A DNA stretch of 34,153 nucleotides, from NCBI GenBank assembly GCA_903852585.1, contig CAINRG010000013.1, positions 1 to 34,153 of the forward strand. The letters are read 5' to 3'. The DNA is from an uncultured Actinomycetes bacterium (GTDB lineage Bacteria > Actinomycetota > Actinomycetes > Nanopelagicales > Nanopelagicaceae). The notes beneath the pieces were generated by a model. The model worked only from the letters and a program-made list of their open reading frames with translations. It was not told the DNA's origin and did no database searches. Both the position numbers and the translations under genes were made by a program. Position 1 is the first letter of the stretch. Each line of letters starts with the position of its first letter. Of this stretch, positions 11,538-15,153 are shown piece by piece.

Positions 11538-13282
11538 TAGAGCTCCTGTGAATCCCAGACAGGCGCAAGTGAACGCGCAAGTGTGATTGAGTCATTAGAT
11601 GTTCCAGCTGCAACCATTGGCCACACCATTGCATCGCGGTGGACGCTAAAGTCCACAACAACAGGTTGGTCATTAATTGACATTGCCTTTTCGATAACAG
11701 CATCAACTTCATCGCGACTCTCAGCGCGAAGTCCAACACAACCCATTGCTTCGCCAAGCTTGGCAAAGTCAGGAATGCGCTTTGAATGAAGATCGGTATT
11801 TGAATAACGTTCGTTGTAGAAGAGTGATTGCCATTGGCGAACCATTCCAAGACTTTCGTTATTAATGATTGCAATCTTTACGGGGATGCCATTGAGAGCA
11901 CATGTTGTGAGTTCCTGATTTGTCATCTGGAAACAACCATCTCCATCAATCGCCCAAACTGTGCGATCTGGTGCGCCAACTTTTGCACCCATTGCAGCGG
12001 GAACTGCATATCCCATCGTTCCCAAGCCGCCTGAATTCAACCAGCTGCGAGGGCGTTCGTATTTAACAAATTGTGATGCCCACATTTGGTGTTGGCCTAC
12101 GCCGGCAACATAAATAGCTTCAGGACCTGCAATTAATCCAAGGCGCTCAATTACATATTGTGGTGAAAGCGAGCCATCAGAAGGGTGGTCGTAGCCCAAA
12201 GGATATATCTCACGCCATCCTTGTACTTGCTTTACCCAACCTCCGATATCAGGCTGGCCCTTTTTGAATTCAGCTTTAAGCACAGGAAGAAGTGCATCAA
12301 TAGTGTTCTTCAAATCTCCGACGAGTGGAACGTCGACGCGACGAAGCTTGCCAATCTCGGCAGGATCAATGTCTGCATGAATTACTTTTGCATTAGGTGC
12401 AAATGTTGAAAGTTTGCCAGTAACACGATCATCAAAGCGCGCTCCAAGTGTGATGAGCAAATCTGCTTTTTGAAGTGCGGTAACAGCAGCTACTGTTCCG
12501 TGCATTCCTGGCATACCAAGATGTTGTGGGTGACTATCTGGGAATGCGCCAAGAGCCATCAAAGTGGTGACAACGGGTGCGCCAGTAAGTTCTGCAAGCT
12601 TCATTAATTCCTTACTTGCATTTGCCTTGATGATTCCACCACCAACATAAAGAACTGGCTGCTTAGATTCTGCAATCAATCGTGCGGCATCGCGAATGTC
12701 ATTCTCATTCGGATCAAGCTTTGGCTTGTATCCAGCAAGATTGACTACAGCTGGGTAATCAAATGTTGTCTGTGCAGCGAGCGCATCTTTGGAGATATCA
12801 ACAAGAACAGCGCCTGGACGCCCCGTGGATGCGATGTGGAATGCTGATGCAATCGCATGGGGAATATCTTTCGGATTCGTGACCAAGAAATTGTGCTTTG
12901 TGACAGGCATTGTGATTCCGCGAATATCTGCTTCTTGGAATGCATCTGTTCCGATTGAGGATGAATTGACCTGGCCGGTGATGGCAACCATAGGCACAGA
13001 ATCCATTTGGGCATCAGCAAGAGGTGTTACAAGATTTGTGGCACCCGGACCTGATGTTGCGATACAGACTCCAACGCGGCCGGTGACTTGCGCATAACCT
13101 GTAGCGGCGTGGCCGGCACCTTGTTCGTGACGAACCAAGATGTGGCGAATCTTTGAGTCGAAGATGGGATCGTATGCAGGAAGAATTGCACCGCCGGGAA
13201 TTCCGAACATAACATCGACGCCTGCATGCTCCAAAGATTTCACGAGGGATTGTGCCCCTGTTACGTTTTCATTACTTGTCAT
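11537..13282 (-). CDS. ilvB: Acetolactate synthase large (catalytic) subunit
   Basis: ThDP/FAD enzyme that makes acetolactate from two pyruvates, or acetohydroxybutyrate from pyruvate and 2-oxobutyrate. [15 protein letters not shown] holds the catalytic glutamate (about residue 53). [15 protein letters not shown] ending in NN (about 447-475) is the ThDP-Mg motif. Two ATGs lie in frame: the first (13288) touches the GGAG of the binding site, the second (13282) has six bases between GGAG and ATG. I choose the second, giving 581 residues starting [11 protein letters not shown]. Its leader carries an attenuator (13331-13455), so this start controls the seven-gene operon down to cimA. Confidence 0.96.
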
Positions 13283-13330
13283 GTTCATCTCCTTCCGGTT
13301 TCCTTGATCTGATTTCTCTTATGCGGTGAA

Positions 13331-13363
13331 ATGAGAAAACCCTCAGTTTTTCCACTGAGGGTT
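13331..13363 (-). terminator. Intrinsic terminator in the ilvB leader (attenuator)
   Basis: On the minus strand AACCCTCAGT, loop GGAAAA, ACTGAGGGTT forms a perfect 10-bp stem, followed by TTCTCATTTC. It lies between the promoter and ilvB, about 50 bases before the start codon. It therefore would stop transcripts that never reach the gene, the defining layout of an attenuator. It follows the leader-peptide hairpin after one base. Confidence 0.85.
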
Positions 13364-13364
13364 A

Positions 13365-13394
13365 GCGCACGATCGTCTTGCTTAGATCGCACGC
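13365..13394 (-). promoter_or_regulatory. 10-bp hairpin spanning the leader-peptide stop codon
   Basis: On the minus strand GCGTGCGATC and GATCGTGCGC pair over ten positions (eight Watson-Crick, two G-U) around a 10-base loop that begins with the leader TAA. The 5' arm is the last part of the leader coding sequence, so a ribosome reaching the stop must open the stem, whereas one stalled at the earlier Val-Val codons leaves it free. This is what a translation sensor needs. I did not find an obvious antiterminator pairing between this hairpin and the terminator arms. Confidence 0.7.
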
Positions 13395-13420
13395 TCTCGA
13401 ATCACCACTGATGACTTCAT
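13382..13420 (-). CDS. ilvB leader peptide (12 residues, attenuation)
   Basis: The reading frame from the ATG at 13420 to a TAA encodes MKSSVVIRERAI. Four of twelve residues are branched-chain (Val-Val-Ile and a final Ile; GTG GTG ATT and ATC codons). It ends inside a hairpin and lies directly before an intrinsic terminator and ilvB, matching the known arrangement of ilv leader peptides. The candidate -10 box ends six bases before the ATG, so the peptide mRNA is probably leaderless; there is no Shine-Dalgarno. Regulation by charged Val/Ile tRNA is inferred. No leucine codon is present. Confidence 0.75.
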   Translation of the reverse strand: MKSSVVIRERAI

Positions 13421-13426
13421 AGGCCT

Positions 13427-13455
13427 ATTCTCGCCGACCTATTCGGGGCAGTCAA
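13427..13455 (-). promoter_or_regulatory. ilvB operon promoter
   Basis: TTGACT (13450-13455) and GAGAAT (13427-13432) on the minus strand are 17 bases apart, a standard sigma-70-type spacing. The -35 has five of six consensus bases and the -10 four. Transcription would begin at about the A of the leader-peptide ATG. GAATAGG occurs twice, 14 bases apart, across the spacer and -10, and a palindrome ATAGGCCTAT covers the start site; both could bind a regulator, but this is unproven. Confidence 0.65.
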
Positions 13456-13460
13456 CCCCT

Positions 13461-13474
13461 GAGACTCAAGTCTC
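13461..13474. repeat. Inverted repeat just upstream of the ilvB -35 box
   Basis: gagact-ca-agtctc is a perfect 6-bp inverted repeat with a 2-base centre, between the ilvD stop and the ilvB -35 element. It has no U-run on either strand, and a 2-base loop makes a poor RNA hairpin, so a protein-binding site is more likely than a terminator. Function is inferred only from position. Confidence 0.4.
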
Positions 13475-13479
13475 ATTAT

Positions 13480-15153
13480 TTAGGACGTTACTGCACCTTG
13501 GGAGGCAGAGCCAACGACCTTTGAATACTTTGCCAATACCCCGCGCTTGTACTTGTGGGGAACTGGAGAGAAACTCTTTCGGCGCTCGGCCAAAGTTGCC
13601 TCATCAACCAACAAATCAAGTTGGCGCGTAATGGTGTTGATGCGAATGCGATCGCCATCCTTGACGAATGCGATAGGTCCGCCGTCGACTGCTTCAGGAG
13701 CAACGTGGCCGACACACAACCCTGTGCTTCCTCCGGAGAATCGACCATCGGTCAACAAGAGAGTGGATTTACCAAGACCGGCACCTTTTATTGCTCCGGT
13801 GATCATCAACATTTCGCGCATTCCAGGTCCGCCTTTTGGACCTTCATAACGAATAACGACAACATCACCTGCTTGGATTGTTCCATTTTCTAAAGCTTCC
13901 ATCGCAGCTTGCTCACGTTCGAAAACACGGGCAGGGCCTTCAAACTCTTCAACTCCTACGCCGGCTGTCTTACATACCGCTCCTTCAGGAGCAAGTGAAC
14001 CGCTAAGAATTGTTATTCCTCCCCCGAGAGAGAGTGGGTTTTTGATGGAATGGAGAACTTCACCATCTGGATCAAGCGGCTTCACATCTGCAAGATTTTC
14101 AGCCATGGTCTTTCCGGTGACGGTCAATACATCTCCATGTAATAAACCTGCATCAAGAAGTGCGCGGAGAACGACTGGAATGCCGCCGACTTTATCCACG
14201 TCAGACATTACAAATTTTCCAAATGGCTTCACATCTGCAAGAAGCGGAACCTTGGAACTAATGCGCTGGAAATCTTCCAGTGTGAGGTCAACTTCTGCCT
14301 CATTTGCAAGTGCCAACAGGTGAAGAACAGCATTTGTTGATCCACCGAGCGCCATGACAACAGTGATGGCATTTTCAAAAGCTTTCTTCGTCAAAATATC
14401 GCGAGTTGTAATTCCTTGGCGAATCAATTCAACAACAGCGGCGCCAGATTTGATGGCGTAGTCATCGCGGCGACGGTCAACTGATGGAGGTGAAGCAGAA
14501 CCAGGAAGAGAAAGACCGATCGCTTCCCCAACTGCTGCCATGGTGTTGGCGGTGTACATGCCTCCACACGCACCTTCACCTGGGCAGATTGCTCGTTCAA
14601 TACGATCAACTTCTGCTTCGGTAATAAGTCCACGAGCACATGCACCGACTGCTTCAAAGGCATCAATAAGCGTCACATCTCGTCCATCGATATTTCCAGG
14701 AAGAGTGGATCCTGCATAAACAAATACTGCTGCAACATCGATACGAGCTGCCGCCATCATCATTCCTGGAAGTGACTTATCACAACCGGCAAACATCACC
14801 ATTCCATCAAGGCGTTCTGCTTGCATCACAGTTTCAACTGAATCAGCAATAACTTCGCGAGAAACAAGACTGAAGTGCATTCCTTCATGTCCCATAGAAA
14901 TTCCATCAGAAACCGAAATAGTTCCAAATTGCATAGGGAAGCCGCCACCCTCGATAACACCTTTGCGAGATGCCTTTGCGAGGCGATCAAGTGAGAGGTT
15001 GCATGGTGTTATTTCATTCCATGATGAGGCGATTCCGATTTGCGGCTTCTTAAAATCTTCATCTTCCATGCCAACAGCGCGGAGCATTCCGCGGGCCGGG
15101 GAACGTTCTAATCCGTCGGTGACAAGAGCAGAACGTGGCTTCATATTTGTCAT
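13480..15153 (-). CDS. ilvD: Dihydroxyacid dehydratase
   Basis: Iron-sulfur dehydratase giving the 2-oxo acids of Val and Ile. The 557 residues carry the cluster cysteines at 51 (ITPCNLSLD), 125 ([10 protein letters not shown]) and 197 ([16 protein letters not shown]), with the carbamylated-lysine region and [14 protein letters not shown] also present. The ATG has AGGAG nine bases upstream. It is five bases after gatB, so it travels with the gat genes. It ends before the ilvB promoter, hence outside attenuator control unless it reads through. This split of ilvD from the rest may uncouple its expression. Confidence 0.97.

Follow-up and report, generated by a model that had tools for sequence, protein, structure and literature searches.

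The window, the whole 34,153-nucleotide stretch of DNA that was analyzed, is contig 13 of a 77-contig, 1.35-Mb assembly and very probably carries, ahead of ilvB, a ribosome-mediated attenuator, based on a leaderless Val/Ile leader peptide, that governs transcription of the ilvB-ilvN-ilvC-serA-leuB-ilvE-cimA operon. The actinobacterial leaderless ilvL attenuator is of a kind already known, and its Nanopelagicaceae member is new: our search of the literature found no description of leaderless branched-chain amino acid (BCAA) attenuation in Nanopelagicaceae (acI). The Nanopelagicaceae relatives, including strain IMCC26103, are what we take to be acI freshwater actinobacteria; IMCC26103 is classed at NCBI merely as unclassified Actinomycetota. 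BCAA attenuation through a leaderless peptide is now placed in a family of abundant freshwater bacteria that have very small genomes.

Promoter, leader peptide and stems

The promoter, frame, sensing codons, spacing, hairpin and terminator of the leader, and the conservation of each, are supported by sequence comparison, and all of these features lie on the minus strand. The promoter (13427-13455) consists of a -35 box TTGACT at 13455-13450, a 17-nt spacer and a -10 box GAGAAT at 13432-13427, and the leader ATG at 13420 follows 6 nt past the -10 box, all as an earlier note on this DNA had described. Taken alone, the promoter match is not significant (9 of 12 positions, with 0.9 such matches expected in shuffles). 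The family set consists of 92 distinct Nanopelagicaceae ilvB upstream records, 91 of which extend to the promoter; the sole record without one, L051, ends at a contig edge. Every one of the 91 complete leaders possesses TTGAC, a 17- or 18-nt spacer and a [GA]ANNNT hexamer, mostly GAGAAT. The distance from the -10 box to the start codon is 6 nt in 86 of these leaders and 7 nt in the other 5, a range partly imposed by a search pattern that permitted 5-7 nt and that zero leaders failed. Across the family the peptide ranges from 8 to 30 residues while the -10-to-ATG distance stays at 6-7 nt, which ties the ATG to the promoter rather than to the sensing codons. There is no Shine-Dalgarno site ahead of the leader ATG, and this together with the 6-7 nt spacing leads us to expect transcription to begin at the ATG or right beside it. 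The ilvL frame would then be leaderless, its start codon lying at or adjoining the 5' end of the transcript.

The leader-peptide frame ilvL (13382-13420) encodes MKSSVVIRERAI and ends with the stop codon TAA at 13384-13382. Its sensing codons, identified from the aligned V/I/L runs, are GTG GTG ATT (Val5, Val6 and Ile7) at 13400-13408. Such a short, V/I/L-rich frame directly upstream of ilvB is what characterizes the actinobacterial ilvL attenuators, and the frame noticed earlier, of 12 residues in the window, is kept in both close and distant relatives. Over all family leaders V/I/L account for 43% of residues in this frame, and the two alternative frames reach 11% and 14%. Run positions -2, -1 and 0 are V/I/L in 88, 89 and 89 of 89 leaders, respectively, position 0 being so by construction because the alignment is anchored on the last run residue. 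The codons in use at the run are GTG, GTA, GTC, GTT, ATT, ATC and CTC. Leader nucleotides are near-invariant within a genus; between genera the amino acids are kept and the codons differ, which is the outcome of the comparison of Val/Ile codons that had been suggested as a check. The length of the peptide differs among leaders by whole codons.

Hairpin 1 (13364-13395), a putative antiterminator or translation-sensitive element recognized by folding, covariation and spacing, has a 5' arm at 13395-13385, which overlaps the last codons of the leader, and a 3' arm at 13374-13364. With the closing A-U pair counted, its stem has 11 bp, of which 2 are G-U, and its loop, TAAGCAAGAC, opens with the stop codon. 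The intrinsic terminator at 13338-13363 has a 10-bp stem, AACCCTCAGT-GGAAAA-ACTGAGGGTT, followed by TTCTCATTT; it lies between the frame and ilvB, has a U-rich tail after the stem, and the stem is present in all family leaders for which the region is complete. A hairpin of 10 bp with its loop at the stop codon, followed one base later by a perfect 10-bp terminator, had been described before: the loop position and the terminator stand, the latter family-wide (13363-13338 in the window), and the hairpin length and the gap become 11 bp and zero bases when the A-U pair is counted. The window leader folds at -38.2 kcal/mol as against -21.2 +/- 2.9 kcal/mol for shuffled sequences (z -5.8), and none of 200 shuffles folded as well. 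Judged by comparison of leaders, the joint occurrence of promoter, frame, hairpin and terminator is far beyond chance, the same set recurring in 91 distinct leaders.

In 82 of 88 leaders hairpin 1 begins 7-10 nt (mode 7) after the last BCAA codon, counted from the first base of that codon; in two of the six exceptions the stem seems to have been chosen wrongly. Measured from the ATG, the hairpin starts anywhere between 25 and 82 nt away. Measured from the stop codon it starts between -11 and +5 nt, if two outlying stems are set aside, and the stop codon lies before hairpin 1 in some leaders and inside it in others. On the evidence of these alignments, it is the position of the sensing codons relative to hairpin 1 that is kept, not the position of the stop codon. 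When the best stem between the sensing codons and the terminator was sought with no constraint on its position, its end lay within 0-1 nt of the terminator in 60 of 62 leaders, compared with 21% of shuffles. Those GC-rich loci for which the automatic choice of terminator or open reading frame failed or was wrong were excluded from the counts and not scored as absent.

The compensatory stem changes proposed earlier as a check are present in hairpin 1, where 5 of 15 pairs have changed on both sides (38 leaders). At columns 11-39, for example, G-C has become U-A: the peptide codon CGC (Arg) has become CTC (Leu) and its partner has co-changed. None of 500 shuffles reached the covariation score of hairpin 1, and slid controls scored far lower; the relatedness of the sequences inflates the shuffle control, and more weight belongs to the slid control and to how many types of pair occur. 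Loss of the frame and stems in close relatives, which the earlier note named as grounds for abandoning the idea, is not what we find: both are kept there, and in distant relatives as well.

The operon and a candidate operator

Assignment by NCBIfam gives the downstream genes, in order, as ilvB-ilvN-ilvC-serA-leuB-ilvE-cimA, so that the gene content previously proposed for an attenuated operon spanning ilvB to cimA proved right. The start codon of ilvB is probably the ATG at 13282 rather than that at 13288, since the Shine-Dalgarno sequence GGAAGGAG (13289-13296, minus strand), recognized from the sequence and from comparison with relatives, ends right at ATG 13288 and leaves it no spacer. The alignment of IlvB begins at residue 3 in most relatives.

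An operator-like palindrome at 13451-13476 (minus strand), composed of TGAGACTTGAGTCTCA (13475-13460) and TCTCAGGGGTTGAC (13464-13451), overlaps the -35 box. We regard it as a candidate operator for an LtbR/NdgR (IclR-type) repressor at ilvB, and similar half-sites are found at the same spot before ilvB in many relatives. An IclR-type gene encoding a protein of 237-240 aa lies divergent from leuC (L170, 967-1677, corresponding to approximately 23633-24343 of contig C75 in genome G000), and TCTCA-N5-TGAGA palindromes or close variants occur between the LtbR/NdgR-like gene and leuC; before ilvB, half-sites of this form both flank and overlap the -35 box. The NCBIfam match of the protein (BhcR) is far below the cut-off, and the protein has relatives across the class. 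The divergence from leuC is the arrangement of NdgR and LtbR, which makes the protein a probable LtbR/NdgR ortholog. The strict palindrome TGAGAY-N3-6-RTCTCA has one other site in the genome, inside an unrelated frame, and consequently the palindrome alone does not define a regulon. NdgR is known to bind upstream of ilvB in Streptomyces coelicolor (PMC4340878).

Homologous leaders and known attenuators

A covariance model, R1, constructed from Nanopelagicaceae sequences only, was run over the window and the ilvB loci of 59 other actinobacteria. It detected the leader in 40 of the 59 at E values up to 1 and in 26 of them at E values up to 0.01. Every R1 match shares the strand of ilvB and lies immediately ahead of that gene, and a single extra minus-strand match overlaps a true one. 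Among 198 genomes drawn evenly from the class and searched with stricter filters, 27 had a match at E up to 0.01, which indicates that R1 is specific rather than exhaustive. Both the R1 matches and the shared register of codons and hairpin establish homology with the other actinobacterial leaders. One model and one geometric rule, with codons 7-13 nt before a terminator-abutting hairpin, thereby join acI, Streptomyces, Nocardioides and Cellulomonas. A scan with Rfam 15 at the gathering score and at E up to 5 returned nothing relevant, with no match at E below 1. Two R1 matches per genome were seen in G147 (contig C34, 591-660 and 15483-15550) and in G186 (contigs C37 and C146); the family is related at class level, and a second gene may carry the same attenuator there.

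The classical ilvB, ilvGMEDA and trp attenuators of Escherichia coli possess a Shine-Dalgarno site, and their 1:2, 2:3 and 3:4 pairings exclude one another. The window leader resembles them in having a leader peptide with sensing codons and, as proposed here, a ribosome whose position would set termination against read-through, and differs from them in having its ATG at the predicted 5' end and just two adjacent, compatible stems. A likeness is also seen with the ilvBNC attenuator, or ilvB-II motif, of Corynebacterium glutamicum (PMC11857589, PMC10272879; Morbach et al. 2000): its BCAA codons (MTIIRLVVVTARRLP) stand ahead of a hairpin, H2, that is placed directly against the terminator, H3. 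In C. glutamicum the boundary trinucleotide GCC belongs to both H2 and H3, and the start is shielded by one more hairpin, H1; in the window no base is common to hairpin 1 and the terminator, and no H1 was seen. Transcription in C. glutamicum starts one base from the leader ATG, changes of Val to Ala in the leader abolish Val-dependent control, and the trinucleotide that the H2 antiterminator shares with the base of the terminator has been mutated with results that support the model (PMC11857589).

The leader before ilvBHC of Streptomyces lividans is also leaderless by RNA-seq (PMC8079986), and its ilvL peptide, MRTRILVLGKRVG, is identical in Streptomyces loci L119, L124 and L125. Attenuation by ilv leader peptides outside the present family, corynebacteria included, had been put forward as known, and the leaderless leaders before ilvB in C. 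glutamicum and S. lividans bear this out (PMC11857589, PMC8079986). The Streptomyces ilvL attenuator was predicted by Seliverstov et al. 2005 (PMC1262725). The window shares with it a leader open reading frame with a BCAA run before ilvB (predicted to be leaderless in the window), a hairpin abutting the terminator (CCCCTCG...CGAGGGG in Streptomyces) and a last BCAA codon 7 nt from the hairpin start. Unlike the VVI run of the window, Streptomyces ilvL has an ILVL run, with GC-rich stems, a longer, branched hairpin 1, a better U-run and other operon content. By its description, ilvB1NC of Mycobacterium tuberculosis is likewise preceded by a BCAA-rich uORF (LVVI) and then an intrinsic terminator before ilvB; it yields a terminated RNA of approximately 120 nt and a reporter that is induced on BCAA depletion, but a competing antiterminator fold has been proposed for it (PMC13236596), whereas none was found in the window.

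Proposed mechanism and rival explanations

For the transcription start, translation, stalling and the way in which hairpin 1 prevents termination, we infer the following sequence of events. Transcription would begin at ATG 13420 or one base earlier, and a ribosome would load straight onto the 5' end without a Shine-Dalgarno site. With charged tRNA-Val and tRNA-Ile in plentiful supply, the ribosome would pass GTG GTG ATT, reach the stop codon and mask the 5' arm of hairpin 1; the abutting terminator would then form behind RNA polymerase, and the RNA would end approximately 90 nt from its start. With charged tRNA-Val or tRNA-Ile scarce, the ribosome would stall on the Val/Ile codons, hairpin 1 would fold and the terminator would be prevented from forming. 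The sensing codons are 7-13 nt ahead of the start of hairpin 1, about the distance from the A site to the leading edge of the ribosome. Counted from the first base of its A-site codon, a ribosome shields about 12 nt of the RNA ahead of it; with this coverage, stalling at Val5 would leave hairpin 1 whole, stalling at Ile7 would hide some of the hairpin, and a ribosome that has reached the stop codon would cover the 5' arm. The earlier proposal of ribosome-mediated attenuation of the ilvB operon thus draws support from the comparative retention of the frame, the Val/Ile codons, the stems and the 6-7 nt spacing.

Base pairing alone does not account for a switch. Folding gives the terminator a base-pair probability of approximately 0.97 when hairpin 1 is present and of 0.99 when a ribosome occupies the stop codon; hairpin 1 and the terminator coexist in folding, and pairing alone therefore makes no switch. 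In none of 86 leaders did the hairpin region pair with the terminator 5' arm better than chance (none below 5% of shuffles), nor was any 2:3 antiterminator above chance when the hairpin region or the leader was paired with either terminator arm. The classical three-segment attenuator (2:3 versus 3:4) was rejected, as no antiterminator pairing that uses the terminator 5' arm was found. Continuing hairpin 1 into the terminator by GAG:CUC pairs was also rejected, as by eye such pairs are not conserved. What is conserved is the abutment of hairpin 1 and the terminator, which are 0-2 nt apart. By analogy, hairpin 1 would play the part of H2 in C. glutamicum. One possibility, which we put forward tentatively and do not regard as the probable one, is a steric switch in which hairpin 1, flush against the terminator, keeps it from closing fully in the exit channel of RNA polymerase unless the base of hairpin 1 opens. 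If this were true, its signature would be the fixed spacing of 0-2 nt between the two stems throughout the class. Components of the actinobacterial attenuators were already noted as missing in 2005, and the absent antiterminator turns that gap into a concrete, testable question (PMC1262725).

The coexistence of the two stems, with no competing pairing found, would also suit a leader in which hairpin 1 is a mere pause or tandem-terminator hairpin, both stems terminate constitutively, and control is exerted mainly at the promoter by an LtbR/NdgR-like repressor. Changes of leader codons before ilvB in S. coelicolor were reportedly without effect, according to a passage of PMC1262725 that cites the experiment; an LtbR/NdgR-like regulator is encoded divergently from leuC, a matching half-site pair overlaps the -35 box, and there is the binding of NdgR upstream of ilvB in S. 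coelicolor (PMC4340878). We nevertheless consider constitutive termination unlikely, as it leaves unexplained both the Val-dependent control in C. glutamicum (PMC11857589) and the retention, in family leaders, of the V/I/L run and of its spacing from hairpin 1 while other parts of the leader drift.

It is also conceivable that the main transcript comes from within or before ilvD, so that ATG 13420 is read, if ever, within a longer RNA and is not leaderless. The ilvD gene is on the same (minus) strand and ends at 13480, 60 nt ahead of the leader ATG, the promoter score alone is unremarkable, and transcripts reading through from ilvD would not be leaderless, which counts against our reading. However, the promoter boxes and the 6-7 nt spacing are kept in 91 of 91 leaders, and by eye the module persists where the upstream gene is not ilvD-like (L059, L140 and L163); the leader ATG has no Shine-Dalgarno site, and homologous ilvL transcripts are leaderless by RNA-seq. 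A main transcript of that kind is accordingly very unlikely in our judgment. Strong conservation of leader nucleotides within a genus would fit a metabolite-binding RNA (riboswitch) or a protein-binding leader with an incidental frame, but this is the explanation that we find hardest to credit: codons change while amino acids are kept, the V/I/L enrichment is frame-specific, the length varies by whole codons, and no Rfam match was obtained at the gathering score or at E below 1. For the Corynebacterium ilvB-II motif, a role as a ppGpp riboswitch has been put to the test and discarded (PMC10272879).

A protector that pairs the leader with the 5' arm of the hairpin, found in a few leaders of one other genus (L067 and L151), is absent from the window. 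In L067 and L150-L152, which belong to genus g15, GC-rich sequence close to the beginning of the leader is able to base-pair with hairpin 1 on its 5' arm. This g15 protector resembles hairpin H1 of C. glutamicum and, in an untranslated leader, would favour termination.
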